A stretch of 32,833 nucleotides of DNA from Terriglobia bacterium (GTDB taxonomy: Bacteria; Acidobacteriota; Terriglobia; Terriglobales; Acidobacteriaceae), in assembly GCA_020073015.1 (NCBI GenBank), contig JAIQFZ010000060.1, positions 1 through 32,833 on the forward strand, in the 5' to 3' direction. A program made the position numbers and the translations under genes. Positions 4,310 through 21,099 of this stretch are shown piece after piece (positions within the stretch are counted from its first letter, which is position 1; each line of letters opens with the position of its first letter). The notes below the pieces were generated by a model, which had not been told where the DNA came from, made no database searches, and saw nothing but the letters and a program-made list of their open reading frames with translations.

Positions 4310-6904
4310 ATGAGCACCGTGGCCACCGTCAGCAGTGACTTACGGGACCTGTACGCACGAGAATCCGCTGCGATCCAGCAGGAATTTTCCGTCACGGGTG
4401 GGGGCCGCACTGCGCTCGCCCGGCGCACCGCGCTGGTCGATTCCATGCTTCTGCGGCTGTGGAGTGAGATCATCTCTGCAGACCCGCAGGGGCCCAAGAA
4501 CTTCGCGCTGGTTGCAACTGGCGGATTTGGCCGCGGCTGGCTCTTCCCTCACTCCGACATTGATCTGCTGTTTCTCCACGCGGGCTCCGATACTGAGAAT
4601 GATTTCAAGGATCCGATTCGACGTTTCTCACAGGAATTGTGGGACCTGCGTCTGAAGCTGAGTCCGGGCACGCGGACGCTGGCGGAGTGCGAACGATTCG
4701 ATCCCGACAATGTTGAGTTTGCGATCTCGCTGCTCGACTGCCGCTATCTGGCGGGCGATCGCGATCTCTTCACGCGGCTGTACGACAAGGTTGTTCCCCG
4801 CCTGGTGGCGCGCGAGTGCCACAACCTGATTCAAAACCTGGGTGAGATCACGCGCGGACGACATCACAAGTTCGGCAATACGGTCTTCCACCTGGAACCG
4901 AACGTCAAAGATGGACCCGGCGGTCTGCGCGACTACAACGTCGCCTACTGGCTGGCGCTGATCTCCGCCATGGAAAAGCTGCGCATGTGGCCGGACCCGA
5001 AAACTCTGCTGCCGGTTTCGTCCCGCCGCGCGCTCGAAGCCGCGCTCGACTTCCAGATGTCGGCGCGCTGCTTTCTGCACTTCCGCTACGGACGTCACGA
5101 CAACACGTTGAGTTGGGAAGCCCAGGACGAAGCCGCCGCTCGCAAGATTGGCGCTTCTGATCTTGAGATCGCAACCGCCGCCGATTGGATGCGGGTGTAC
5201 TTCGGTCACGCGCGCGCCGTGCACCGCGTCTGCACCCAGTTGCAGGAAGAGATTCCCGCGGCTTGGTCCTCTTTATACAAGCAACTTCAGAGCTGGCGGA
5301 CGCGCGTCTCAAATCCGGATTTCTCGGTCGTGGATGGACTGGTTTTCCTCCAGCAGCCTGACGCGCTGCAAGATCCGGAAATGCTGCTGAAGCTCTTCCA
5401 CTTCGTGGCTCAGCATGGCGTGAAGCTGAGCACCACCACGGAGTACAGAATTGAACAGGTGCTGCCAGGGCTTGCGGCCACTCCTCCGCGCGGCGCGGAA
5501 CTGTGGCTCTACCTGCAGGAAACGCTGGTCCAGCCGTATGCGGCTGACGCTCTCCGCGCCATGAATGCGCTTCGCCTTCTGCCCCTTCTGCTGCCGGAAT
5601 TGAAGGGGATTGAAGCCCTGGTCGTTCGCGACTTCTACCATCGCTTTACGGTCGATGAACACTCGTTCCTGGCCATCGAACATCTGCACCGCCTGAAGGA
5701 ATCGAAATCGGAGTGGGACCGGCGCTTTGGCGAATTGCTGGGGGAGCTTGAACAGCCGGAGCTTCTGTACCTGGCATTGCTGCTGCACGATACCGGCAAA
5801 GCTTCGCCCGATGAGTACCACGTCGATGCCAGCTTGCAACTGACTGACACCTGCGCCGACCGCTTGGATCTGGATCCGGTGGACCGGGAAACGCTGCGCT
5901 ATCTGGTGGGAAGTCACCTGGAAATGTCGGCGGCCATGCGGCGGGACGTATTCGATCCGGGCAATGTGAAGTCATTCGCGGAAAAGGTCGGAGTGCCGGA
6001 GCGGCTGAAGATGTTGTGCCTGCTGACCTATGCCGACATCAAGGCCGTGAATCCGGAGGCCATGACGCCGTGGAAGGCCGACAACCTGTGGCAGCTCTAT
6101 ATCGCCTCCGCCAACCACCTGAGCCGGTGCGCAGACGAGCGCGTGCATACCGATGACACAGGCTCGAACCTGGCGCATCTGCGATCGCTCGCGCCGGTTG
6201 CCGGGAAGAAAATCAACACCTTCCTCGAAGGATTGCCGCAACGCTATCTTCGGATCCATGGCGCCAGCGATGTGCTCATGCACGCCGAGATGGCCGGCCA
6301 ACTAGGGAGCGACGGCGTGCAGTTGAGTCTGAAGCAGGTGCGCCACTGGTATGAATTGACGCTCATCACGACCGACCGGCCCTTCCTGTTTGCCTCGGTT
6401 TCGGGAGCGCTGGCGGCGTGGGGAATGAACATCGTAAAAGCCAACGCATTTTCGAACGTGGCAGGGGTGGTGGTGGACACGTTCTATTTCACCGATCGCT
6501 TTCGAACGCTCGAGTTGAACGTGCAGGAATGGGAGCGTCTGAAAAAGAGCATCGCGGCCGTGGTCAAGGGCGAGGCCGACGTGGCTCGCATGCTGCGAGA
6601 CCGGCTGAAATCGGAGAAGGCGCACGGCACGAAAGTCAAAATCGACACGCAGATCGAATTCGACGACCACTGCTCGGCGCATAGCACGCTGATGCAAGTC
6701 CTGACCCAGGATCGTCCAGGGCTGCTCTATAAAATGTGCTCGCAGATTTCGAAGCATGAGTGCAATATCGAGATTGCCCTGATTGAAACGGAAGGACAGA
6801 TGGCGATCGACGTCCTGTATCTAACATCGGCCGGGAAGAAGCTGGATGGAAAGCGGCAGGCTGCGCTGAGGCGTGCACTCCAAGAGGAACTGGCAGCAAA
6901 GTAG
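4310..6904 (+). CDS. glnD: Bifunctional [protein-PII] uridylyltransferase/uridylyl-removing enzyme
   Basis: GlnD attaches UMP to PII Tyr51 when glutamine is low and removes it when glutamine is high. The 864-aa protein has the full domain order. The nucleotidyltransferase domain carries GGFGRG (71-76) and catalytic D83 and D85 in HSDIDLLF. It is followed by the helical GlnD linker and a metal-dependent HD hydrolase domain (H451 in VDEHSF and the H493-D494 pair). Two glutamine-sensing ACT domains follow at about 683-760 (start TTDRPFLFASVSG) and 793-864 (start TQDRPGLLYKMCSQI). Both activities should therefore be present. AAGGGAG (4293-4299) precedes the ATG by 10 bases. Linkage to its substrate gene glnK supports a dedicated ammonium-sensing operon. 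Confidence 0.97.
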   Translation: MSTVATVSSDLRDLYARESAAIQQEFSVTGGGRTALARRTALVDSMLLRLWSEIISADPQGPKNFALVATGGFGRGWLFPHSDIDLLFLHAGSDTENDFKDPIRRFSQELWDLRLKLSPGTRTLAECERFDPDNVEFAISLLDCRYLAGDRDLFTRLYDKVVPRLVARECHNLIQNLGEITRGRHHKFGNTVFHLEPNVKDGPGGLRDYNVAYWLALISAMEKLRMWPDPKTLLPVSSRRALEAALDFQMSARCFLHFRYGRHDNTLSWEAQDEAAARKIGASDLEIATAADWMRVYFGHARAVHRVCTQLQEEIPAAWSSLYKQLQSWRTRVSNPDFSVVDGLVFLQQPDALQDPEMLLKLFHFVAQHGVKLSTTTEYRIEQVLPGLAATPPRGAELWLYLQETLVQPYAADALRAMNALRLLPLLLPELKGIEALVVRDFYHRFTVDEHSFLAIEHLHRLKESKSEWDRRFGELLGELEQPELLYLALLLHDTGKASPDEYHVDASLQLTDTCADRLDLDPVDRETLRYLVGSHLEMSAAMRRDVFDPGNVKSFAEKVGVPERLKMLCLLTYADIKAVNPEAMTPWKADNLWQLYIASANHLSRCADERVHTDDTGSNLAHLRSLAPVAGKKINTFLEGLPQRYLRIHGASDVLMHAEMAGQLGSDGVQLSLKQVRHWYELTLITTDRPFLFASVSGALAAWGMNIVKANAFSNVAGVVVDTFYFTDRFRTLELNVQEWERLKKSIAAVVKGEADVARMLRDRLKSEKAHGTKVKIDTQIEFDDHCSAHSTLMQVLTQDRPGLLYKMCSQISKHECNIEIALIETEGQMAIDVLYLTSAGKKLDGKRQAALRRALQEELAAK

Positions 6905-6908
6905 AGCT

Positions 6909-6984
6909 GTAGCGCCGGCAGTTTGCCGGCTGTCCCGAGAGCCTGCCCAGAGCTTGTCGAAGGGGCGCCCCGCCCTCGGCCACT
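6909..6984. repeat. Palindromic intergenic repeat, half copy
   Basis: It begins GTAGCGCCGGC and forms a perfect hairpin, GCCGGCA-GTT-TGCCGGC, followed by CTGTC. It then runs into a common bacterial repeat-like string (GAGCTTGTCGAAGG) and a GC palindrome, AGGGGCGCCCCGCCCT. The left arm matches the arms of the fuller copies at 11569-11662 and 30044-30140. The right arm with the CTAC-type end is missing. It lies 5 bases after the glnD stop and could also act in 3'-end processing. Confidence 0.6.
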
Positions 6985-7158
6985 GCGAACCAGAAAAGCG
7001 CCCTCTCGATTCTAACCCCCGTTGAATCGGTCCAAACCTGGCCTCTTTCACCAGGCGCCTGGAATAATTCTTGGGGCCCATGAAACGGGGCGCGCCTTCT
7101 CTGCACTATCCCAATGAGTGGAAGAAGTCGCGGGATAAGCGACAGCGCCACCCCCTCT

Positions 7159-7190
7159 GGATCCCGGGGCAAAAGCGCCAGGATCCTTTT
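7159..7190 (+). terminator. Possible weak terminator hairpin after glnD
   Basis: Two GGATCC sites (7159-7164 and 7181-7186) can pair around a partly complementary interior with an AAAA loop. TTTT follows. The stem has two mismatches, so this is weaker than the next hairpin, which starts only a few bases later. Confidence 0.3.
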
Positions 7191-7192
7191 AT

Positions 7193-7232
7193 ACGCCAGA
7201 GCCGACGGGGAAGCGGCTCCGGCGTTTTTTTT
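7193..7232 (+). terminator. Rho-independent terminator
   Basis: The 12-bp arms ACGCCAGAGCCG (7193-7204) and CGGCTCCGGCGT (7214-7225) pair with one mismatch around a 9-base loop. Eight consecutive T residues (7225-7232) follow. It is a strong intrinsic terminator for plus-strand transcription, 290 bases after glnD, so it may end either the amt operon or a short independent transcript. Confidence 0.8.
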
Positions 7233-7366
7233 ACTGATTTTCGGGGAATTCCGTGAAACGAAACGTGGCCTCCTTTCACCATCCTTACAAGTGAACGCGA
7301 TCACCGGAAAGCGATTGCCGCAGTTTAGGAGCCCAACTTGGAAACTCCCGGCTGGGATCCACTAGA

Positions 7367-7405
7367 AGTGCCGGAGCCGACGGGGAAGCGACTCCGGCAC
7401 TTTTT
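7367..7405 (+). terminator. Second Rho-independent terminator with the same core
   Basis: The arms AGTGCCGGAG (7367-7376) and CTCCGGCACT (7392-7401) pair perfectly. Five T residues follow (7401-7405). Its core, GAGCCGACGGGGAAGCG, is identical to that of the terminator at 7193. Between the two, 7233-7366 has no gene I can support. Confidence 0.75.
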
Positions 7406-7588
7406 GGTTCTCACTTTCCCCAGGTTCAGATCCGTTGGCCGGTAACTTCCAGTAGTGGGGCTCTTCCCAAGTGCGCAAGGTCTACTCCATCTCGTCGGCA
7501 GGTCGCCCGCGCGCCAGCCACCCCGTTCCCAGGTGCCCCTCTGAGCGCGCCCGTGCGCCGGAAAAGGCCAGCAGCGCCCCGTTTGAAG

Positions 7589-7597
7589 TGCTACACT
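7589..7597 (+). promoter_or_regulatory. Possible extended -10 promoter for the ECF-CHAT cluster
   Basis: TGCTACACT fits an extended -10 element (TGn plus TACACT). It would place the transcript start near 7604, about 26 bases before the TTG I chose for the sigma factor. No convincing -35 is seen. An ECF-type autoregulated promoter is an equal possibility. Confidence 0.3.
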
Positions 7598-7629
7598 GTC
7601 TGCCATTCCATGGTCTGCGGGGCAAGTAT

Positions 7630-8214
7630 TTGCAATTTCAGTCTTTTGACGCATCCTACGTGGAACGTCTGCGAGCCGGTGATTTCCGCACCCAGGACCA
7701 TTTTGTCGCTTATTTCACGGAACTCATTCAAATCAAGTTGCGCTCCCGCCTGAAATCGGCACAGGCCATTGAAGACGTTCGGCAGGAAACCTTTGCGCGC
7801 TTCTTCACCGCTCTGCGTGCCGGGAAAATCCTGCAACCGGAGCGTCTCGGTTCGTTTGTGAATTCGATCTGCAACAACGTGCTGCTGGAGCACTATCGCT
7901 CGGGCGGACGCACCGATTCCCTGGACGAGGATGACGGCAAGGACTTCCCTGCCAAAGGGATTGATATCGTGAGCGCTCTCGCCGCGCAGCAAACGGAAAA
8001 GAAAGTTCGCGAGATTCTCGAACAGCTCTCGGAACGCGACCGGCGCCTGCTGCGCGAGATTTTTCTGGAAGAGCGCGACAAGGACGACGTGTGCCGTGCC
8101 TTCGGTGTCGATCGTGAGTACTTGCGAGTCTTGTTGCACCGGGCCAAACAGGCGTTTAAATCGCTGTATCTGAAGGATATGGGAAATGAGCCACCGGAAT
8201 TTGCCACGGCCTGA
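7630..8214 (+). CDS. ECF-type RNA polymerase sigma factor
   Basis: This extracytoplasmic-function sigma factor has about 194 aa if translation begins at TTG 7630. The frame stays open back to 7471, but the extra 53 residues are Arg/Pro/Ser-rich and unlike any sigma factor, and a candidate -10 lies at 7592. Region 2 is seen around AIEDVRQETFARFF and the following AGKILQPERLGSFVNSICNNVLLEHYRS. Region 4 is a helix-turn-helix, LSERDRRLLREIFLEE through VDREYLRVLLHRAKQAFKSL. A membrane anti-sigma factor follows 54 bases downstream, the standard pairing. Its targets are unknown; autoregulation of this cluster, including the CHAT protein, is the simplest inference. The start codon is uncertain; GTG at 7588 is the alternative. 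Confidence 0.85.
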   Translation: MQFQSFDASYVERLRAGDFRTQDHFVAYFTELIQIKLRSRLKSAQAIEDVRQETFARFFTALRAGKILQPERLGSFVNSICNNVLLEHYRSGGRTDSLDEDDGKDFPAKGIDIVSALAAQQTEKKVREILEQLSERDRRLLREIFLEERDKDDVCRAFGVDREYLRVLLHRAKQAFKSLYLKDMGNEPPEFATA

Positions 8215-8268
8215 GGGCATTGAAACGCTTATGCACGCCGGCTCACTACCTTACGAGGGGGACGACCG

Positions 8269-8946
8269 ATGAACCACGACATGGTGGTTCGGCAAAAAAT
8301 GACGGAAAGGTACCTGCTCGATGAACTCGATCCCGCACAACGGGACGAGTTCGAGGAACACCTTTTCGACTGCCAGAACTGCGCCGATGATGTCCGAGCC
8401 GGCGCCATATTCGTTGAAAAAAGCAAGGTTGTACTGGCGGAGAGCCCGGCGGCGGCTTTGGTGCCCGCACCCGCCCCCGCCTCGCCACCACCCGGATGGT
8501 TCGCCTGGCTGCGCCCCGCCTTTGCCATGCCCGCGCTGGCCGTGCTCCTGGCAGTGGTCGGATATCAGAATCTCGTGACCTATCCTCAACTTGAACAGGC
8601 ACTGAACCGGCCGCAAGTATTGCCATTTGCGTCCGTGAATGTAGGCACATGGGGCGCGGGTGGACCGGTGATCACGACGGCTCCGGGGAAGGGCTTCCTG
8701 CTCTTTGTGCGTATCCCTCCGGACAGCGCCTACGCCCGCTACACCGCAGACTTGTATAACCCGGCGGGAAAGCTAGAATGGTCGCTCACCATTCCGGCGA
8801 TCGCAAGTCAAGATCAGTGGCCGGTGCAGGTACCGGGGGCGAATCGGGAGTCGGGAACCTATACCATGGCAGTGCGCGGCGTGACGGCTGCGGGGGAAAG
8901 CAAAGAAGTGGGCCGCGCCTCATTTGACCTGCAAATTCAGAAGTGA
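8269..8946 (+). CDS. Membrane anti-sigma factor with zinc-finger (zf-HC2-like) domain
   Basis: This 225-aa protein probably holds the preceding sigma factor inactive at the membrane. The N-terminal anti-sigma domain has the zinc-binding pattern H31-x3-C35-x2-C38 within EEHLFDCQNCADD. A Pro/Ala linker (about 60-80) leads to a single transmembrane helix (about 82-102, PAFAMPALAVLLAVVGYQN). The roughly 120-residue extracytoplasmic part is beta-rich. Its FVRIPPDSAYARYTADLYNPAGKLEWSL region resembles C-terminal domains of other acidobacterial anti-sigma proteins, but I cannot name the fold. GAGGGGG (8255-8261) precedes the ATG at a good distance. The next gene starts 24 bases later, so the order sigma, anti-sigma, anchor-P-like, CHAT is one operon. 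Confidence 0.85.
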   Translation: MNHDMVVRQKMTERYLLDELDPAQRDEFEEHLFDCQNCADDVRAGAIFVEKSKVVLAESPAAALVPAPAPASPPPGWFAWLRPAFAMPALAVLLAVVGYQNLVTYPQLEQALNRPQVLPFASVNVGTWGAGGPVITTAPGKGFLLFVRIPPDSAYARYTADLYNPAGKLEWSLTIPAIASQDQWPVQVPGANRESGTYTMAVRGVTAAGESKEVGRASFDLQIQK

Positions 8947-8970
8947 GCTTTAACGAGGGAAGCGTACAAT

Positions 8971-9870
8971 ATGGCCGCTATGCCGGAAACATCGTGGCAC
9001 GAGTTCCATGCCGAAGCCCATGTCCTTAGCGGACACTTGCAGCGTCCCGTCGAGCAGAAGATCGAACGGCACGCGCCGGTCGCGTTGAAGGACCGGAAGG
9101 GTGGCCATCTCACCCGGTTCACAGAGGACGTCAACATCGAAGGACTGGTTTCCTTCAAGCGGGGCCGCACGCGCGTGTCGGGCAGCCAGAGCGCCAAGGA
9201 CGACCCGAAGAATCACGGGTGGGTGACCGTAGCTACTTCAATTCTGGAAGGCCTGAATGTTTTCGAACTCATTACGGCGGATCGTATCGTGGCGCAGGTC
9301 TCGACCGACCATCCCCTGGTGAATGGACACTTCCCCCACGTTACCTTCCTGGGCACGCAGTTCAATAATCTCCAGGTTAACGGAGTTCCCATCACCTTGA
9401 CGCTTAACCTCGGAATCTGTGGACAGAGGCCGAAGGACGACACGTCTTATCTGTCCGATCGCGGTTTCTTGGGCCGGGCTAAAGAGCAGACCGAAAAGGT
9501 TGCCAAGACAGACGGCCTTCCCAAAGATCTTCAGACTGAGTACGCTAATAGGCTCACCGCGATCAACAACCTCATCAAGGGCGGCAACAAGAGCCGCGAA
9601 GCCAAGGTCACATGCTCGATCGTCAAGAGCATCAACAACCTCGACGAGATTCCGATTCCCGGCATCCGGGCGGTCGGACATGTGCTGATCATTCCGGACT
9701 TTGGCACCGTATCGCTGGGCGAGGTCGAGGTCAGCGAGGTGTTCTACGAGGGCTCCGAAAAGCCCAGCAATTCCTTCGATCTAACGATGCTCAAGATGAA
9801 CTTGGGCTGCGTCGGGCACGGGACCGTGAGCGGCGCGAGCGCCAAGTCCAACGGCCAAGGCTATCCATAA
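8971..9870 (+). CDS. Beta-rich protein resembling choice-of-anchor P family proteins
   Basis: This 299-aa protein has no confident function. Parts of the sequence, including ATSILEGLNVFELITADRI, FNNLQVNGVPITLTLN and IPDFGTVSLGEVEVSEVF, recall the repeating pattern of choice-of-anchor P proteins (a layer on hidden internal topics, then an induced variable in an NGxxIP/T stretch, then a PGxGTVxLxE strand). That similarity is from memory, not a search. Unlike those secreted proteins, it has no signal peptide and no membrane helix, and its N-terminus (MAAMPETSWHEFHAEAHVLS) is hydrophilic, so it appears cytoplasmic or exported by another route. GAGGGAAG (8955-8962) supports the ATG at 8971. Its stop overlaps the likely start of the CHAT gene, so the two products are probably made together and may interact as target, substrate or scaffold. 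Confidence 0.7.
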   Translation: MAAMPETSWHEFHAEAHVLSGHLQRPVEQKIERHAPVALKDRKGGHLTRFTEDVNIEGLVSFKRGRTRVSGSQSAKDDPKNHGWVTVATSILEGLNVFELITADRIVAQVSTDHPLVNGHFPHVTFLGTQFNNLQVNGVPITLTLNLGICGQRPKDDTSYLSDRGFLGRAKEQTEKVAKTDGLPKDLQTEYANRLTAINNLIKGGNKSREAKVTCSIVKSINNLDEIPIPGIRAVGHVLIIPDFGTVSLGEVEVSEVFYEGSEKPSNSFDLTMLKMNLGCVGHGTVSGASAKSNGQGYP

Positions 9871-12443
9871 CTTTCGGCGGATGTCTGCTGCTCCTCGCCT
9901 GTGGACTTGGCTGCGTTCGCCGCGGCGACCCGCAGGCTCTTTTTCAGGAGGCACAGCAGGCGCTCTGGCACGGCGACCTGACCCGCGCCCAAAAAGAAGC
10001 TGAACAAGGCTATCTGCGATTTCGGACTTCCAGCCCTGAGTGGGCAAGAAAATTCAGAGTCCTGGAAGCGGAAGCGCTCCAACTGCGTGGAATGTACCCG
10101 CAAGTGCTAACTCTGCTGGACTTGGAGTCAACTCCCCCAGAGAGAGGCTCGACCATCGACGTCCTGGCGCTCAAAGCCGCCGCACACGCGCGCCTCCATC
10201 ATTTCAGCGAAGCTGAGCAAGACCTTACGCGGGCAGAAGAACTGTGCCACACGTCGGCGGAGGTTGCCTGTGGACGGGCGCTGCGGGCGCGAGGCATTCT
10301 GGCGTGGCAGCAAGGCCAACCTCTGGTCGCGAAGCGTTTCTTCGAACAGACGCGAGCTTTCGCCCACCTCCACCGCGATCAGTTCTTGGAGGCAACCACC
10401 CTTCTTAATCTTGGGCTAGGGGCGCTTCTGGAACAGCACTTCGACGAGGCGATCGATTGGACAGATGCTGCCTACCAAGCCGCAGCAGTTCTGGATGCGG
10501 GCACGATTGAAACGAAAGCACTGGGGAATCTTGGCTGGGCTTATTACAACCTGGGTGATTTTGAAAAGTCACTGGAGTTGTCTCTTGAGGCCGAGAAGCG
10601 TGCGATTCAAGTTGGCGACGTCATCGACCAACTCTCGTGGGTCACCAATGCCGGATATGTATACCAGCAAGGGCGCGATTTCCCGCGCGCCAGGCAGTCC
10701 TACCTGAAGGCGTTGGATCTCGCCAGAAAGATCAGCGGTCGGGAAGATATCTACAATGCCCTGCGGGCACTGGCATTGGTTTGCGTGCAGACTGGCGAAC
10801 TCGAGCAGGCGCGCAAGTACGCCGACGAAGCCATCGCCATCGCACAAGCTGATAAGAATCGGACGGATGAGCTTTACCCCCTGCTGGTCAAGGGAATGAT
10901 TGCCGCTCAAGAGAATCCTGCGGAGGCTGAGGACATATTCCGCGAAGTGGAGGGAGACAAGAACGGAAACGCATCTCTGAAGTGGCGGGCTGAACATGAA
11001 CTTGCACGCCTCTATGAACATCAGAATCGCCCGGACTTGGCGGATCGTGAATACCGCGTCGCTCTGGCTACGTTCGAAGGCGCTCGCTCGTCGCTAAAAC
11101 GCAACGACTCGAAGTTGCCGTTCTCCACCAACGCCGCTCACATTTACGACGACTATGTTCATTTCCTGGTCACGCGGGGGAAAACCAACGACGCCTTGCG
11201 CTGGGCCGATTACAGCCGCGCTCGAACACTAGCCGAAGGTCTGGGATTGCTGGCGAAGGAAACGTCGACCGGCACCGCGCAGCAAGACTTCGCCGCCCCG
11301 CCGACCCTGAATGCGCAAGAAATCGCCCGGCACGTGAAGGGCACGCTTCTTTTTTACTGGTTGGGCGAGAAGCAGTCTTATCTGTGGGCCATTACGCCAC
11401 AGAAGACCAGCTTGTTCCCGCTGCCTCCCGGCTCCGAAATCGATGCAGCGGTCGCGCGCTATCGTAAAGCCCTCGGCGGGCCGGAGGACGTAATTGACTC
11501 AGCGAACGCTGATGGCCGCTGGTTGTATCACACGCTGATCGCACCCGCGCAGGCATTGCTGGACGACTGTAGCGCCGCCGCCCCGGCGGCTGTCCCGTCG
11601 GCCGGCTCTGGGCAGGCGAGGGCAGGGTGCCCTCGCGACAGCCGGCAGGGTGCCGGCACTACGAGCCCCAAGGTCTTCGTCATCCCCGATGGCAGCCTGA
11701 ACAACCTGAACTTCGAGACGCTGATTGTCTCCGAACCGAAACTTCACTACTGGATCGAAGACACCACCATTGCCGACGCCAGCTCGCTGCGCGTGCTGGC
11801 CGCTTCGTATGCAACCGAAAAGAAACGCGCCCGGCGCCTGCTTCTCGTGGGGGACAGTGTGGCGCCGAGCAGAGAATATCCTGAACTGCCGAAAGCGGCG
11901 GTCCAGATGGAAAGCATCGCCCGGCATTTTCCAGAGGCGGGGCGGCGGATCTTATCGCGCGGGCAAGCCACTCCGGCGGCATACTTCGAGACCAGCCCGG
12001 AGCAGTTTTCCCACATTCATTTTGTCGCGCATGGAACGGCCAGCCGGTTGAGTCCCCTCGACTCGGCCATTGTGCTGTCGCGGGGAGGCGCGGAGAACGA
12101 TTCCTTCAAGCTCTATGCCCGCGACATTATCCGCCACCCGTTGCGGGCTGACCTGGTCACGATCTCGGCGTGCTACGGCGCGGGTGAACGCTCGTACTCC
12201 GGCGAAGGCCTGGTGGGACTCTCCTGGGCGTTCCTCCGGGCGGGCGCGCACAACGTGATCGCAGCCTTATGGGAGGCGACCGACGTCTCCACCGAGCAAC
12301 TCATGAGTAGGTTTTATGACGAGGTGGATAAGGGAGCGAGCCCGGACGCCGCCTTGCGTACCGCAAAACTGTCGCTGCTGCGGGGCAGCGCGTTTCACAA
12401 TCCGTTCTATTGGGCGCCGTTTCAGCTGTACGCCGGATCGTGA
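9867..12443 (+). CDS. TPR-CHAT domain protein, probable caspase-like peptidase
   Basis: This is a protein of about 858 aa. CHAT domains are caspase/separase-fold cysteine peptidases found in bacterial regulated-proteolysis and cell-death systems. The N-terminus is hydrophobic (FGGCLLLLACGLGC) and looks like a lipoprotein signal, with a Cys at 12 or 16. Residues about 30-440 form TPR-like helical repeats (for example ALGNLGWAYYNLGDFEKSLELS). The CHAT domain covers about 590-858 and keeps the catalytic pair H722 (HFVAHG) and C769 (ISACYGAGE), the family end-motif NPFYWAPFQLYA, and GSLNNLNFE at its entry. No ATG, GTG or TTG exists where the protein should start. ATA at 9867, overlapping the upstream stop, with AAGG 6 bases ahead, is my best guess; the first in-frame ATG is near 10093 and would remove the signal. 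A palindromic repeat adds about 32 residues near 568-599. Confidence 0.88.
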   Translation: MTFGGCLLLLACGLGCVRRGDPQALFQEAQQALWHGDLTRAQKEAEQGYLRFRTSSPEWARKFRVLEAEALQLRGMYPQVLTLLDLESTPPERGSTIDVLALKAAAHARLHHFSEAEQDLTRAEELCHTSAEVACGRALRARGILAWQQGQPLVAKRFFEQTRAFAHLHRDQFLEATTLLNLGLGALLEQHFDEAIDWTDAAYQAAAVLDAGTIETKALGNLGWAYYNLGDFEKSLELSLEAEKRAIQVGDVIDQLSWVTNAGYVYQQGRDFPRARQSYLKALDLARKISGREDIYNALRALALVCVQTGELEQARKYADEAIAIAQADKNRTDELYPLLVKGMIAAQENPAEAEDIFREVEGDKNGNASLKWRAEHELARLYEHQNRPDLADREYRVALATFEGARSSLKRNDSKLPFSTNAAHIYDDYVHFLVTRGKTNDALRWADYSRARTLAEGLGLLAKETSTGTAQQDFAAPPTLNAQEIARHVKGTLLFYWLGEKQSYLWAITPQKTSLFPLPPGSEIDAAVARYRKALGGPEDVIDSANADGRWLYHTLIAPAQALLDDCSAAAPAAVPSAGSGQARAGCPRDSRQGAGTTSPKVFVIPDGSLNNLNFETLIVSEPKLHYWIEDTTIADASSLRVLAASYATEKKRARRLLLVGDSVAPSREYPELPKAAVQMESIARHFPEAGRRILSRGQATPAAYFETSPEQFSHIHFVAHGTASRLSPLDSAIVLSRGGAENDSFKLYARDIIRHPLRADLVTISACYGAGERSYSGEGLVGLSWAFLRAGAHNVIAALWEATDVSTEQLMSRFYDEVDKGASPDAALRTAKLSLLRGSAFHNPFYWAPFQLYAGS
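11569..11662. repeat. Palindromic mobile-type repeat embedded in the CHAT gene
   Basis: This 94-bp element is bounded by GTAGCGCCG and CGGCACTAC. Its left unit (GTAGCGCCG...CGGCGGCTGTC) and right unit (GACAGCCGGCAGGGTGCCGGCACTAC) are inverted relatives. An interior hairpin, GAGGGCAGGGTGCCCTC, lies between them. The same architecture occurs at 30044-30140, and the left unit at 6909. It encodes a low-complexity Ala/Gly/Ser/Arg stretch in the CHAT frame. The length is not a multiple of three, so extra bases must have been gained or lost for the frame to stay open. Confidence 0.8.
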
Positions 12444-15542: not shown

Positions 15543-17189
15543 CTATTTCTTGCTGACCTCGGTCAGTACGGCGTTCGCGGCCTGCTGCAGCAGCGGTGTC
15601 AGCACGTCTTCGCCGTCGGATTTCGCCTTGCCTTGCAGAGAGTTCTGCGCGCGCGGCGTAGTCTGTCCGGTGGGCACAAGCTGGTACTGCACGGTCACGT
15701 CGTCTTTGGACTTAATCTGACCGTTGAACCCGGAGAGCTGATTCATAGCCTGTTGTTGCGCCGACATGGCCGCGGCCGACGCGGCCGCACCCGCCGCCTG
15801 GGCCGCAACCGCACCACCCATTCCTCTTCCCATAGCTCCCATCGGAGTCATACTGGCCACGGGCGCCGCCATCTTCATGAACTTGCCAAAACCTCCACCT
15901 GAGCTGTGTTTCACGGCCACGCTGGAGAACAGGATGAAGTCGCACTGTTTTTGCTGAGCCTCGGCCTGGAGTTGCATCGCGATGTGGGAGTCGAGCGCAG
16001 CAATCTCGACCGCCGGGCCGCTCATAAGCGCGACCTCGGCGTTGCGGATTGGAGTGCTGTAGTCAACGCCCGCGTTGTTGCCTTGACCGAGTTGCGCGTC
16101 GGGCGGCGCCACCCCGATCCGAATCTTTCCCGGCGCCTTCGGCCCCAGGGCTTGCGGCGCAGCCACCGGCGCGCTGGCCGGTTGGTGGCCGCCCATGCCC
16201 GGCATGCCACCCATGTTCGGCATCCCACCCTGGGTAAATCCAAGCTGCGAGGCTTGCGCCAAGGCCTGCTGCTGCATCGCTAACTGCGTTGCAGGACCCG
16301 TCACCGGGTTCATCATTTGCGCCACGGACGGCATATTGGGCCGCGGATTCGCCTGCGGTTGCCCATACGAGGCGGGCGGGGCGACCATGCCCCCCTGGGC
16401 GGATTGGGTCGCTTGCGGCGCGCCATTGAGTTCGGCCAGCGTGTTCACTTGCCGGTATCCCGCAGGCACGTCAAACATATCCTTGGGAAGTTCCTGCTTG
16501 GTGAGTTCTGAAACCCGGGTGGTCACCGTAGTCGTGGTGCCGTCCGGGTTCGGCATGGTGATGTCTTCCTGCAGGGGGTATCCAATCTTGCCGCTGCCCA
16601 CGCGGCGCGCAACCACCGTGTCATGGCAACCCGTCCCCTGCTGCACGGGCGGGGCAACCGTGGCGCAACTGGCCTGCTCCTTGGAGATGTCGGCGAACCA
16701 GCCATCGATGTCGAACGACTGGCGCACCTGCGTGCAGGCATCCTGCGAAGGCTCCTGCACGACTTTGGCTTTGATGTGTCGTGCCTGGTAGCCGTACAGG
16801 ACCTTGCGCTCGCCGGTGTCAGTGATCGTAGTGGTGACGGTGACCTTCCCTCCCGCGGCTTCCGTGGCTGGCGCGCCGGTAGCCAGCGCCGCAGCTCTGG
16901 CGGCATTCTCGTCCTGGGGATCACCGGTGGAAAGGTAAGTCTGGGCCTGTTCGTTCAAGGTCAGTGTGCGCCTGAGGTCGCACTGCCTCAGCGTGATCGT
17001 GCTTCCGTTGGGTCCTTGACTCACGCTGCGCTCGCGCGCGCCCTTGATGGACGACTCAGTCGTGGAGACGACGTACCCTCCAACCGAGATATTCTTCTTG
17101 ATGTGCAGATCCTGGGCTTGGGCTGTGATGGCAAAGAGCACGGCCAACGCCAAAACAACACCGACACAACCGCGGGTAGACTTCGTCAT
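15543..17189 (-). CDS. Secreted protein of unknown function with low-complexity middle and glycine-zipper-like segment
   Basis: This 548-aa protein has a signal peptide (cleavage near TAQAQ, residue 25). Residues about 27-245 form a beta-rich domain with paired cysteines (QCDLRRTLTL, KEQASCATV, QGTGCHDTV) that recalls DUF4412-type lipoprotein domains; this resemblance is weak. Residues about 255-345 are low complexity, rich in Gln, Pro, Met and Gly (GGMPNMGGMPGMGGHQ). A second domain, about 355-450, begins KIRIGVAPPDAQLGQG and includes CDFILFSSVAVKHSS. An Ala/Gly/Met-rich hydrophobic segment (GAMGRGMGGAVAAQAAGAA) resembles a glycine zipper that could insert into a membrane. It ends with a VQYQLVPTGQ strand region. 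AGGAGAG precedes the ATG. It is divergent from the sigma-kinase operon, 413 bases away. The function is not recognised. Confidence 0.75.
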   Translation of the reverse strand: MTKSTRGCVGVVLALAVLFAITAQAQDLHIKKNISVGGYVVSTTESSIKGARERSVSQGPNGSTITLRQCDLRRTLTLNEQAQTYLSTGDPQDENAARAAALATGAPATEAAGGKVTVTTTITDTGERKVLYGYQARHIKAKVVQEPSQDACTQVRQSFDIDGWFADISKEQASCATVAPPVQQGTGCHDTVVARRVGSGKIGYPLQEDITMPNPDGTTTTVTTRVSELTKQELPKDMFDVPAGYRQVNTLAELNGAPQATQSAQGGMVAPPASYGQPQANPRPNMPSVAQMMNPVTGPATQLAMQQQALAQASQLGFTQGGMPNMGGMPGMGGHQPASAPVAAPQALGPKAPGKIRIGVAPPDAQLGQGNNAGVDYSTPIRNAEVALMSGPAVEIAALDSHIAMQLQAEAQQKQCDFILFSSVAVKHSSGGGFGKFMKMAAPVASMTPMGAMGRGMGGAVAAQAAGAAASAAAMSAQQQAMNQLSGFNGQIKSKDDVTVQYQLVPTGQTTPRAQNSLQGKAKSDGEDVLTPLLQQAANAVLTEVSKK

Positions 17190-17602: not shown

Positions 17603-18181
17603 TTGCACGGCGAATCTCCCAGTCCGGTTACGCAGCTGTTAGTCCGCTGGAGGGCTGGCGACCACGAGGCGCTCGAAGCCTTGATGCCGCTCGTCTACGA
17701 TGAACTGCGCCGCCTGGCGCACCACTATTTGCGCCAGGAGCGAAGCGATCACACCCTACAGAGCACGGCTCTGGTGCATGAGGCTTACTTGCGTCTGGCC
17801 GGACAGAACCCGCCCCAATGGCAGAACCGCGCTCATTTCTTTGGGATCGCGGCCCATCTGATGCGGCAGATCCTGGTGGAATATGCCCGCAGCCGGGGAA
17901 CCGCCAAACGGGGCGCGAACGCTCCCCGATTGGCATTGGATGTGGCTGCGGCTCTTCCTCAGCAAACCGATGTTGACGTGGTAGCGCTGGACCGAGCCCT
18001 GCAGGAACTCTCCGAACTGGACGCCCAGCAGGGCCGTATCGTCGAGTTGCGCTTCTTTGCGGGCCTGACGATCGAGGACACCTCCGAAGTCCTGGGCGTT
18101 TCTCCCGCGACCGTGAAACGCGACTGGACGACCGCGCGCGCCTGGTTGTACCGTGCCATGACCGGAGAAGCGCGGCTATGA
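17603..18181 (+). CDS. ECF-like RNA polymerase sigma factor, kinase-associated type
   Basis: This 192-aa sigma factor is of the ECF-like group (TIGR02999 type) common in acidobacteria and planctomycetes and often encoded next to Ser/Thr kinases. Region 2 spans about residues 8-75, with LLVRWRAGDHEALEALMPLVYDELRRLAHHYL and LQSTALVHEAYLRL. Next comes the group-typical FFGIAAHLMRQILVEYARSR. Region 4 (about 125-185) is LSELDAQQGRIVELRFFAGLTIEDTSEVLGVSPATVKRDW, a helix-turn-helix. The proposed start is TTG 17603, because an ATG at 17583 is in another frame; the exact start is uncertain. Its stop overlaps the first kinase start as ATGA, so the two are translationally coupled. No anti-sigma is encoded nearby, so control may be by phosphorylation, as known for other members. 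Confidence 0.93.
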   Translation: MHGESPSPVTQLLVRWRAGDHEALEALMPLVYDELRRLAHHYLRQERSDHTLQSTALVHEAYLRLAGQNPPQWQNRAHFFGIAAHLMRQILVEYARSRGTAKRGANAPRLALDVAAALPQQTDVDVVALDRALQELSELDAQQGRIVELRFFAGLTIEDTSEVLGVSPATVKRDWTTARAWLYRAMTGEARL

Positions 18182-21099
18182 ACTCCGAGCGGTGGCAACA
18201 GGTCAAGCAGTTGCTGGAGGAAGCGATTGCGCTCGACGTCTCGGAACGCCGGCCGTATCTGGATCGCGCGTGCGCCGCGGATGGTGAACTCCGGAACGAA
18301 GTCGAATCCCTTCTCTCCTCGCACGAACAGGCCGGAACCGGCTTCCTGAAGTCACCGGCGATCGATCTGACTTCTGCTCCACCCGTCCCGACGCGCCCCG
18401 GCGGCCGAATCGGCCCCTACCAGATCGTCGCCGAAATCGGGCACGGGGGAATGGGCGACGTGTACGGCGCCTTCCGCGCAGATGGCCAGTACGAGAAGCA
18501 GGTCGCCATCAAGATCGTTCGTCGTGGTTCCGACACTCGCTCGGTGCTGGAACGTTTCTTCAAAGAACGCCAAATCCTGGCCTCACTCGACCATCAAAAC
18601 ATTGCGCGCCTGCTGGATGGAGGCACGACCGAGGATGGCGTGCCCTACCTGGTCATGGAACTGATCGAAGGTGAGCCCATCGACCAGTATTGTGACGCAC
18701 ACGAGCTGACCATCACGCAGCGGCTGGAAATTTTCCGCCAGATCTGCTCCGCGGTGCAGTATGCCCACCAGCGCCTGGTGATCCACCGTGACATCAAGCC
18801 GAGCAACATTCTCGTCACCGCAGATGGCATCCCGAAGCTTCTCGATTTCGGCATTGCCAAAATCTTGGATCCGTCGGGTACGGCGCAGACCACCATCACC
18901 ATGGCGATGACTCCGGAATACGCCAGTCCGGAACAAGTGCGCGGAGAGGCCATCACTACGGCCACAGACGTGTACTCGCTAGGGGTCGTCCTCTACCAGT
19001 TGCTGACTGGGTATTCACCTTATGGCGGTACCACCAGCACCCCCCACGAGTTGGCCCGCGCCATATGTGAACACGAACCAGAGCGCCCCAGCACAGCGAT
19101 CCTAAAAACGGAGGCCCGTTCCAGTGGCGAGCGCGTGCCCACCGTACCCCAGGCCGCCGGCCACGCGCGCGAACGATCTCCGGCGCGACTTCGCCGGCGC
19201 CTGGCGGGCGACCTCGATAACATCGTGCTCAAGGCGATGCGCAAGGAGCCGCAGCGGCGCTACGCATCGGTCGAGCAATTTGCGGAGGATATCCGCCGTC
19301 ACTTGGAAGGGCTGCCCGTCACAGCCGCTCCCGATTCGCTCGGATATCGGGTGAGTAAGTTCGTGCGGCGGCACAGCGTCGGCGTGGCCGCCACTGCGCT
19401 GATCGTACTCACGGTGCTCGGAGGTGTGACCGCGACCGTGCGCGAGGCTCAGATCGCTCGTGCGCAGCGGACACGGGCGGAAAAACGCTTCAACGATGTC
19501 CGCAAGCTGGCCAATTCGCTGATGTTCGACATTCATGATTCCGTAGCGAACCTGCCCGGCTCGACTCCAGCACGCAAGCTGATCGTACAGAATTCACTCG
19601 AATACCTTGACAGCCTGGCGCAGGAATCCAGCGGCGATCCTTCCCTGCAACGGGAACTAGCCACGGCCTATGAGAAGGTAGGCGAGGTTCAAGGAGACAT
19701 TGTCACGGCCAACTTGGGGGACACGGCCGGAACCCTGGCCAGTTACCGCAAGGCGCTGGCAATCCGCCGGGCCGTCGCCCAAGCGAATCCGGGGAGTGTG
19801 GAGGATCGCATTGCACTGGGCGGGAGTCTTCGTCATCTATGCCGTTTCCAACTCGAAGCGATCGGAGATCTCGCGTCTGCTCTCGAGAGTTGTCAGCAGG
19901 CTGTCGCCGCCACCGCGGCCGCCCTTCAGTTGGACCCTGCCAATCAGAAAGGGCGTGAGGAACTCATTGAAGACTACACGGACTTGGGGTCGGTCCAGAG
20001 CGGCAATGGAACGGGTGGCAATCTGAATGATCCCGCAGCGGGTCTGGAAAGTTATCGCCAAGCGCTGGCGGTTGCCGAACAATTGGCCAAGGACGCGCCC
20101 TCGGACCTGGGCCGGAAACGACTCTTGGCTACGCTTGAAGGACAGACTGCCGACAGCTTGCTGGAAACGGGCGAGCGAGTCGAAGCCCTGCGCCATTTCC
20201 AGCAAGCGCGCGCCATCTTTGAGCAGTTGGCTGCCAGCGATAGCATCGCCCGTCTCAACTCGGTGGTGGTCCTGCACTATATCGGCGACGTGTTCGTCGT
20301 CGACGAAAAGTTTTCTGACGCGCACGCGTACTACTCGAAAGAGTTGGAGCTGGCATCGTCTATTTCTGCGGCGGATCCAAAGAACATCGCCGGCCGGATG
20401 CTGTTGGCCGGAGCCAACATCAATCTCGGGTACTGCCTGGTGGAAATGAATCGCGTCCGCGAAGGCATCACGCGGCTGAATCTCGCCCTTGGGCAGATGA
20501 ATGAACTGCTGAAAACCTCGGGCGCTCACCAAGTTCAAACCGATATCGCGCTGGCCGAAGTTTTCCTGGGACAGGGCTACGAGCACCTCAACGATAGTGC
20601 CAGCGCCTTCCGCCATTACTCGCAAGCGTTCGAGACCTATTCCGCCATCACCCGCGCCGATCCCAAGGATGCTGGCATACGGGTCAACCTCGCTCAACTC
20701 TATGACCGCTTTGGCGGCGTCTACGTCAAGTCAGGAGACACGACCAAGGCTGAGGCCCAGTATCGCCAGGCGCTGGAGATTGCGGACTCTCTGGTCTCTG
20801 CCTCCCCCCGCAATGTCGAGGCCCTCTATGCGCAAGCGAATACCTACGCTGGTCTGGGAGACCTCTCGATAGCGCTAGCTCAGACGGTTCCCAGGGGACC
20901 GGTACGATCCAAGCACACCGCCGATGCCCAGGATTGGTACACCAAGAGCTTGAGCACCTGGCAAAAAGTCCTTAATCCTTCTCGTATCAGTCCAAAAGGT
21001 TTCGAAGTGCACAGTCCAAGCGAGGTTGCTCGCCGACTGTCCGAATGTAAAGCGGGGCTCGCGCCCGCTAACAAGCCGGTCGTGAATCGCGCGCCATGA
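18178..21099 (+). CDS. Membrane Ser/Thr protein kinase with C-terminal TPR sensor (kinase 1 of 3)
   Basis: This 973-aa receptor-type kinase starts in an ATGA overlap with the sigma factor. An N-terminal segment (about 1-70, ERWQQVKQLLEEAIALD ... EVESLLSSHEQAGTGFL) is shared by all three paralogs. The Hanks kinase domain (about 81-375) has GHGGMG (88-93), K112 (VAIKIV), E130, HRDIKPSN (203-210), DFG (223-225) and the APE-equivalent YASPEQ (about 248-253), so it should be active. A single transmembrane helix lies at about 401-421 (VGVAATALIVLTVLGGVTATV). Residues about 430-970 are helical with TPR-like repeats (for example SYRKALAIRRAVAQANP), expected outside the membrane as a sensor or scaffold. 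The C-terminus WYTKSLSTWQKVLNPSRISPKGF is also shared. Substrates are unknown; the adjacent sigma factor is a reasonable guess. Confidence 0.95.
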   Translation: MNSERWQQVKQLLEEAIALDVSERRPYLDRACAADGELRNEVESLLSSHEQAGTGFLKSPAIDLTSAPPVPTRPGGRIGPYQIVAEIGHGGMGDVYGAFRADGQYEKQVAIKIVRRGSDTRSVLERFFKERQILASLDHQNIARLLDGGTTEDGVPYLVMELIEGEPIDQYCDAHELTITQRLEIFRQICSAVQYAHQRLVIHRDIKPSNILVTADGIPKLLDFGIAKILDPSGTAQTTITMAMTPEYASPEQVRGEAITTATDVYSLGVVLYQLLTGYSPYGGTTSTPHELARAICEHEPERPSTAILKTEARSSGERVPTVPQAAGHARERSPARLRRRLAGDLDNIVLKAMRKEPQRRYASVEQFAEDIRRHLEGLPVTAAPDSLGYRVSKFVRRHSVGVAATALIVLTVLGGVTATVREAQIARAQRTRAEKRFNDVRKLANSLMFDIHDSVANLPGSTPARKLIVQNSLEYLDSLAQESSGDPSLQRELATAYEKVGEVQGDIVTANLGDTAGTLASYRKALAIRRAVAQANPGSVEDRIALGGSLRHLCRFQLEAIGDLASALESCQQAVAATAAALQLDPANQKGREELIEDYTDLGSVQSGNGTGGNLNDPAAGLESYRQALAVAEQLAKDAPSDLGRKRLLATLEGQTADSLLETGERVEALRHFQQARAIFEQLAASDSIARLNSVVVLHYIGDVFVVDEKFSDAHAYYSKELELASSISAADPKNIAGRMLLAGANINLGYCLVEMNRVREGITRLNLALGQMNELLKTSGAHQVQTDIALAEVFLGQGYEHLNDSASAFRHYSQAFETYSAITRADPKDAGIRVNLAQLYDRFGGVYVKSGDTTKAEAQYRQALEIADSLVSASPRNVEALYAQANTYAGLGDLSIALAQTVPRGPVRSKHTADAQDWYTKSLSTWQKVLNPSRISPKGFEVHSPSEVARRLSECKAGLAPANKPVVNRAP

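Follow-up and report, generated by a model that had tools for sequence, protein, structure and literature searches.

A conserved four-gene cassette of Acidobacteriota whose CHAT gene very probably starts inside its neighbour: a possible split DdvA-like transcription switch

Background

The stretch of DNA analysed here (hereafter the window: 32,833 nucleotides, contig JAIQFZ010000060.1 of the Terriglobia bacterium assembly GCA_020073015.1) carries on its plus strand a tight cluster of four genes, which encode an extracytoplasmic function (ECF) sigma factor, a membrane zinc-binding anti-sigma (ZAS) factor, a 299-residue protein that we call P299, and a protein with TPR repeats and a caspase-like CHAT domain (TPR-CHAT). 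The locus raises the question of what a CHAT protein does beside a sigma factor and its inhibitor, and of where its gene begins. A preliminary description, made from the letters alone, read the cluster as a membrane-stress sensor through which the sigma factor switches on a protease, and knew of no described system of this composition. On comparative and structural evidence we propose, with a probability of roughly 55%, that the cluster is a split transcription switch of Acidobacteriota resembling DdvA, a CHAT protein deposited as a transmembrane anti-sigma factor, and that the CHAT gene has its own start inside the P299 gene.

The four genes are conserved together

The first three genes are separated by gaps of 54 and 24 bases and the last two overlap, as the preliminary description had it, although it missed the size of the overlap (259 nt, see below). 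We compared four sets of loci, namely, 31 loci from relatives; the best 80 of 96 relatives in a scan of named genomes, which are partly the same loci as the 31; 12 loci chosen by hand from 11 of the 17 P299-positive genomes of a phylum scan; and 18 loci chosen by hand from 18 of the 39 anti-sigma-positive genomes of the class, representing four other families. All four genes lie together in 26/31, 74/80, 9/12 and 16/18 of these loci, respectively (one of the 26, L089, with a weak sigma match), and the gene order noted in a single genome thus recurs across acidobacterial genomes. Each of the 12 loci of the phylum scan has P299 and CHAT, and each of the 18 loci from other families has anti-sigma, P299 and CHAT. 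Counting the host genome itself, 29 of 120 genomes encode P299, mostly with an adjoining CHAT ortholog, as do 17 of 297 phylum-wide, while the anti-sigma query matched in 39 of 151 genomes of the class. The closest P299 proteins among the named relatives are those of Terriglobia, Candidatus Sulfotelmatobacter and Acidobacteriaceae genomes.

The preliminary description had envisaged that P299 might not be conserved next to CHAT genes, or that CHAT homologs might lack the catalytic His/Cys pair and occur without the sigma/anti-sigma pair. We found CHAT within 1.2 kb downstream of P299 in 78 of the 80 loci, with the sigma gene mostly attached (76/80) and likewise the anti-sigma gene (78/80), and the His/Cys pair is kept in all 27 aligned CHAT sequences. 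Of the flanking genes, neither GlnD upstream nor an aldo-keto reductase downstream persists outside the closest relative in the 31-locus set, apart from weak 27-31% matches in L083 and L090. Since these flanks are mostly not kept, the conserved unit is the four genes, and we regard it as nearly certain from these comparisons that they form a conserved cassette in Acidobacteriota.

Among the incomplete loci, L069, L081, L092 and L093 of the 31-locus set and L115, L126, L161 and L178 of the 80-locus set stand at contig ends; the others are L091, which has CHAT only, L143, which has no CHAT, and L148, which has neither sigma nor anti-sigma. These last three, together with L201, which likewise lacks sigma and anti-sigma, count against the reading proposed below, and so do two more general points: the genomes compared are mostly metagenome-assembled, and 8 of 9 non-orthologous acidobacterial CHAT loci have no anti-sigma or sigma match, by our own models, on the CHAT strand. 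Because of the latter, CHAT alone does not imply a sigma-linked role. The host genome (5.5 Mb in 245 contigs) itself has one further CHAT gene, on a different contig, with no sigma or anti-sigma match adjoining.

Two loci deserve separate mention. By eye, the upstream part of L091 looks like the leader that elsewhere precedes sigma, as though a deletion or a mis-assembly had removed sigma, anti-sigma, P299 and the N-terminal part of CHAT. L097, a related cluster, combines CHAT with weak matches to sigma and anti-sigma and gave no P299 match.

The CHAT gene very probably starts within P299

When the CHAT frame is read after the P299 stop, many orthologs have no ATG, GTG or TTG near the hydrophobic segment of the encoded protein. 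Starts upstream of that stop were examined in the 92 distinct loci that remained after removal of 14 duplicates and of L081, L091-L093, L143 and L161, each of which is a fragment or is missing P299 or CHAT. In 62 of the 92 loci CHAT lies in the -1 frame relative to P299 and is open across the P299 stop, and 60 of these 62 have a start codon at one alignment column (52 ATG, 7 GTG and 1 TTG). The remaining two, L170 and L175, whose CHAT frame closes short of the start column and which have nearer starts, were left out of the 60-locus set and kept as exceptions; they are also the only members of the overlap group among the 7 of 92 loci in which the Cys of P299 at the start column is missing. In a group of 18 overlap loci picked by eye, the start codon likewise stands at one column in all 18, at the codon boundary before this conserved Cys. 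Because the Cys codon supplies the 'TG', the informative base is the one before it, and this base is A in 52 of the 60 loci versus 19.3 predicted by codon usage (P 4e-22 if the loci were independent, which they are not).

Downstream of this column the frame is more open than codon-usage shuffles predict. None of the 18 loci has a -1-frame stop in the last 75 P299 codons, where synonymous shuffles expect 43.3 (standard deviation 5.8), or about 19-34 after correction for shuffle bias; in the other frame the same loci have 56 stops versus 49.6 expected (in one test with these 18 loci, L073 was omitted from the non-overlap group). In the 60-locus set, with the final 10 P299 codons omitted as in the 23-locus set below, the CHAT frame has 0 stops in 4293 codons between the start and the end of P299, versus 166 expected by shuffles, or about 73 after a 0.44 correction; the true expectation is nearer 73, since the shuffles overstate -1 stops. 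In the 1200 codons immediately upstream of the start column the -1 frame has 49 stops versus 79.2 expected, and in 9 loci a -1 stop stands directly before the start; therefore the CHAT frame cannot begin earlier there. Of 23 loci with a separate or nearer CHAT start (nine loci with copies, breaks or truncation being excluded), 17 are interrupted by -1 stops over the stretch that corresponds to the overlap, with 29 stops in all versus 66.2 expected.

The start is also preceded by a candidate ribosome-binding site. The four bases of GGAG at positions -12 to -9 are present in 33, 46, 37 and 36 of the 60 loci, respectively, and duplexes with the 16S tail have a mean energy of -5.70, compared with -4.45 for synonymous shuffles and -2.90 for a control site. 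Moreover, a frameshifted second P299 copy precedes an intact CHAT in L117, and only the C-terminal part of a second P299 copy, holding the CHAT start, is left before an intact CHAT in L073; such damaged copies with intact CHAT therefore point to independent CHAT initiation. As for the residues encoded in the overlap, the last 10 before the P299 stop carry a net charge of 2.05 versus 1.02 (47/60 loci exceed the mean of the shuffles), whereas the first 40 are less positive than in shuffles (12/60 loci exceed it).

Several observations temper this reading. The shuffle expectation for -1 stops is too high in general, as other genes and other parts of P299 reach 0.59-0.78 of it, upstream bins 0.49-0.84, and the same region in non-overlap loci 0.44. 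The start-codon and stop statistics take related genomes as independent. The ribosome-site signal is moderate, with -4 kcal/mol reached in 39/60 loci versus 17/60 at the control site. Finally, amino-acid constraint on the second frame is slight: identity at third bases is only 0.007-0.026 higher in the overlap of overlap loci, and it mostly falls in non-overlap loci. Taken together, the start and open frame in 60 of the 62 loci suggest that both frames are under selection in the shared stretch, the amino-acid constraint on the second frame being weak, and the reading frame of P299 is conserved in the ortholog alignment.

On this evidence it is very likely that the CHAT gene starts at the internal ATG at 9612, 259 nt inside the P299 gene, from where the protein would be translated. 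The dual-coded overlap (9612..9870, plus strand) then comprises P299 residues 215-299 and the stop as well as the first 86 CHAT codons in the -1 frame, and across loci it spans 202-310 nt, with 67-103 codons read in two frames. In the isolate Granulicella aggregans M8UP14 (L130), which carries the cassette, the start lies 247 nt upstream of the end of P299. The preliminary description gave the CHAT dyad as H722 and C769, a numbering that implies a start at the ATA codon at 9867; the dyad is intact, but because the comparison of loci places the start at ATG 9612, its residues become H807 and C854.

The encoded proteins

TPR-CHAT (9612..12443, plus strand) has 943 residues when read from ATG 9612. 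Its CHAT domain (11511..12431) matches PF12770 with 171.6 bits (cut-off 24), and H807 (codon 12030-12032) and C854 (codon 12171-12173) are invariant in the ortholog alignment, which took in 27 of 31 CHAT sequences (for P299, anti-sigma and sigma the alignments took in 28 of 30, 28 of 29 and 27 of 27, respectively). We thus describe it as a CHAT-fold, caspase-like protein with an intact dyad and predicted protease activity. The AlphaFold model (mean predicted local distance difference test, pLDDT, 79.1) consists of a disordered tail (residues 1-83, encoded by the overlap, with block pLDDT of about 26-36), a helix (84-100), a TPR solenoid (107-544) and the CHAT domain. The helix is the hydrophobic stretch, and directly after it comes Cys 101 as part of a lipobox-like GLGC; a scan found a lipobox-like Cys after the span in 37 of the 62 overlap loci, using a basic pattern that overlooks some cases and admits doubtful ones, and the remaining loci include spans with no Cys after them.

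The top PDB fold matches of the TPR-CHAT model are 8rw5 (E 1.1e-14) and 8rot (E 4.1e-14), both bearing the title transmembrane anti-sigma factor DdvA; separase and Csx29 come next. We take DdvA to be the partner of the ECF sigma factor DdvS of Myxococcus xanthus. It is deposited as a single chain, a CHAT domain-containing protein of 991 residues, and the fold alignment covers 913 columns. A search for defence-system membership with PADLOC gave weak matches only (GajB 17.3 bits, TPR 19.7 bits).

A GC-rich repeat, GCCGGCAGGGTGCCGGCACTA, lies in frame inside the CHAT gene at window positions 11641-11661, within or next to a loop that is modelled with low confidence (residues 654-683), and the genome has 19 copies of it at up to 2 mismatches. 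Broken second CHAT copies occur in L127 and L141.

P299 (8971..9870, plus strand) was likened in the preliminary description to choice-of-anchor P proteins, a family characterised by a signal peptide together with one of various surface anchors. The family assignment holds, since P299 passes the cut-off of the choice_anch_P model NF040603 (28.1 bits, cut-off 27, the match covering residues 14-143 only) and 26 of the 28 aligned orthologs match it at E <= 0.1; however, inspection by eye, with no predictor run, showed neither a secretion signal nor an anchor in P299 and nothing hydrophobic at either terminus, and P299 adjoins TPR-CHAT. Its AlphaFold model (pLDDT 92.2, predicted template modelling score 0.91) is all-beta with two helices; a fold search of the PDB gave no match at E<=1e-3, and a profile search for a solved relative gave 0 matches. 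Two Cys of P299 are conserved, each in 85 of the 92 loci and both in 78. Second P299 copies or remnants before CHAT are seen in L120 in addition to L117 and L073.

The anti-sigma factor (8269..8946, plus strand; 225 residues) matches zf-HC2 at 28.0 bits (cut-off 22.2), and H31, C35 and C38 of its zinc motif H31-x3-C35-x2-C38 are invariant across 28 sequences. Read from the sequence without a predictor, it has one hydrophobic span at about residues 84-102, and its C-terminal domain is presumed to be extracytoplasmic. Its PDB profile match is 3hug_B (E 4.4e-4), which is presumably a mycobacterial anti-sigma factor.

The sigma factor (7630..8214, plus strand; 194 residues) matches the sigma-70 ECF model TIGR02937 at 43.8 bits (cut-off 42.9), and Pfam sigma regions 2 and 4 both match in order, each below its own cut-off. 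The mechanical open reading frame runs from 7471, and the preliminary description placed the start near 7589, apparently at the GTG at 7588-7590. This GTG falls within a promoter-like block, GTGCTACACTGTCTGCC, that is conserved in close relatives, and the most likely start is instead the TTG at 7630, as the listed orthologs have TTG or GTG at the same place. The block itself (TGCTACACTGTCTGCC, 7589..7604, plus strand) has an extended -10 element TGnTACACT, is shared by close relatives upstream of sigma, has a single occurrence in the 5.5-Mb genome when a pattern search allows up to 1 mismatch, and may function as a promoter. A GGAAAAC-like block about 28 bases before GTGCTACACT, upstream of sigma (window about 7560-7604), is common to many close relatives by eye.

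Elsewhere in the window, two adjacent genes for Ser/Thr protein kinases that carry TPR repeats share a four-base overlap (18178-24014), one protein combines a GAF domain, DUF3417 and a carbohydrate phosphorylase (27341-30037), and a 548-residue open reading frame on the minus strand (15543-17189) has no Pfam match at E <= 0.01.

Proposed mechanism and alternative explanations

In the switch that we propose, the ECF sigma factor would be held by the membrane ZAS anti-sigma factor, and a separate, membrane-tethered TPR-CHAT would face the outside of the inner membrane, as the C-terminal domain of the anti-sigma factor is presumed to do. Upon a signal, TPR-CHAT would relieve the anti-sigma factor, most likely by cutting its outer domain, and sigma would be freed. 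P299 would be an added all-beta partner in this split DdvA-like arrangement, and translation of CHAT from its own start within the P299 gene would tie the genes together and give CHAT its disordered N-terminal tail. The context of DdvA, of Craspase and of the ECF54 group (compared below) is the reason why we favour TPR-CHAT as an outside sensor or protease for the anti-sigma factor. That CHAT acts on the anti-sigma factor is argued by analogy, and we hold it at slightly less than even odds. Against the proposal as a whole, the TM-score with DdvA is moderate (0.48 by query length) with a large root-mean-square deviation, and the sequence match of the CHAT parts reaches only E 0.14.

The direction of control could be the reverse, as the preliminary description supposed: CHAT would be the output, sigma freed by other means would raise P299 and CHAT, and the protease would hit other envelope targets or the cell. 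The placement of P299 and CHAT downstream of sigma and anti-sigma in one tight cluster agrees with this, and a membrane-stress sensor plus a protease remains a plausible description of the parts. However, the fused relative DdvA, titled anti-sigma factor, carries TPR-CHAT; Craspase too suggests that TPR-CHAT acts on, or senses for, the sigma inhibitor; the block before sigma looks sigma70-like rather than ECF-like by eye; and the gap in front of P299 is only 24 nt, where no promoter search was made. We do not favour a sigma factor that switches on the protease over the reverse, and we think CHAT as output rather unlikely.

Two further explanations concern the translation of CHAT; both were weighed and judged weaker than internal initiation in view of the conserved start column, the stop-free frame and the ribosome-site signal. 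A -1 ribosomal frameshift from P299, with no internal initiation, would yield a fusion of P299, membrane span and TPR-CHAT, and is in line with a CHAT frame that has the -1 phase and stays open past the P299 stop, with the many loci lacking a start codon near that stop, and with L159, where one open reading frame (6814-9505) holds P299 and part of CHAT. But L159 has a second frame break within CHAT, because of which indels are likely there and the frame may be a fusion or an assembly error; CHAT is intact in L117 and L073 despite a frameshifted or partial overlapping P299 copy; no shared slippery heptamer was seen in the junction and start listings (by eye, with no systematic search); and a start codon stands at one column in 60/62 loci, preceded by a ribosome-site signal. 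We consider the frameshift highly improbable. We give even less credence, next to none, to the idea that CHAT begins with a rare codon (ATA, GTA or CTA) at the P299 stop, the open frame being a by-product of codon usage. The hydrophobic segment does begin right at the P299 stop in many loci, but in many proteins the span lies well past it, the codon at the stop varies (GTA 25, ATA 19, CTA 11, TTA 4 and CTG 3 of 62), uncorrected codon-usage shuffles predict 166 stops, against 0 found, and the corresponding region of the 23 non-overlap loci has 29 stops.

Junction forms and origin of the overlap

With internal initiation as the preferred reading, the distribution of the long overlap bears on its origin. 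The long form is found in family f1 and apparently also in six loci of family f7, as judged from the open frame and from a start that lies 217-235 nt ahead of where P299 ends, rather than from an aligned start column. Some distant relatives have short junctions, with ATGA at the P299 stop in L197 and ATG on the last base of the stop in L227 and L228. Such junctions give the same -1 phase, and therefore the long overlap may be derived from a short junction whose start was lost; the available part of PMC3887535 presents a model of co-directional overlaps arising via loss and replacement of start or stop codons. On a FastTree tree, the long and short junctions need 21 changes, compared with 35.6 in shuffles, and gains and losses are indistinguishable. 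The tree has long branches that meet, and its labels are open-frame lengths, so that the label 'long' overstates L212, L227 and L228, where an ATG at the P299 stop is also present.

It is conceivable, though we would not expect it, that the overlap, present in much of one acidobacterial family and apparently in a second, is an old selected device and not a frozen accident, and that the CHAT tail touches P299 or the sigma/anti-sigma pair on the inner membrane side. If so, the overlap would tie a caspase-like protein to P299 and encode the cytosolic N-terminal tail of the protease within the gene of its partner, and contact of the tail on the inner membrane side would link outside sensing with inside control.

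Comparison with known systems

A literature search, with many subscription papers outside its coverage, found no description of the four-gene split set with P299, the papers listed in general searches on overlaps did not name it, and the matches listed in a search on DdvA were all on other subjects. The view of the preliminary description that no such system had been described thus stands for the four-gene split form, but not for its logic, in which fused DdvA, Craspase and ECF54 are relatives.

The overlap is longer than those accepted in a published survey. As far as the available part of PMC2478687 goes, none of 715 co-directional overlaps above 60 bp was accepted as real, the longest real one being 56 bp, and published same-strand overlaps conserved across genera measure 32-56 bp, compared with 202-310 nt for P299/CHAT. 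With a second frame that stays open behind a conserved start in 60 loci, this is a well-supported long same-strand gene overlap in bacteria, and annotation rules that discard such long overlaps would mis-start the CHAT proteins of the cassette.

In the ECF54 group, according to the accessible part of PMC8999054, CHAT-domain proteins are conserved in the genetic context, as in our cassette; however, ECF54 is counted there among the ECFs without an anti-sigma factor, whereas the cassette has a ZAS anti-sigma factor. In Craspase, a type III-E CRISPR system with Csx29, Csx30, Csx31 and CASP-sigma, Csx29, a TPR-CHAT protease, cleaves Csx30, which inhibits an ECF-like sigma factor (PMC10028731, accessible part). 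Both systems hold a TPR-CHAT protease and an ECF-like sigma factor in one locus, but Craspase is RNA-guided and complexed with Cas7-11, and the accessible part of that source mentions no membrane ZAS anti-sigma factor. Our TPR-CHAT scores 17.4 against the NCBIfam Csx29 model, below its cut-off of 300, and no CRISPR or Cas family was found among the 13 window proteins scanned with Pfam, a subset of the open reading frames in the window.

DdvA is the closest in logic to what we propose, since in it, too, anti-sigma function is tied to a CHAT protein. By title and length, DdvA unites anti-sigma factor and CHAT in one polypeptide, whereas the cassette has separate genes, with P299 between them and a long overlap; it may function in the manner of DdvA without being one. 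As a CHAT protein is itself the anti-sigma factor in DdvA, a split anti-sigma/TPR-CHAT pair is a natural reading of the cassette, which would then offer a split, genetically tractable CHAT-linked anti-sigma switch, in which sensing, cleavage and sigma release could be separated gene by gene.

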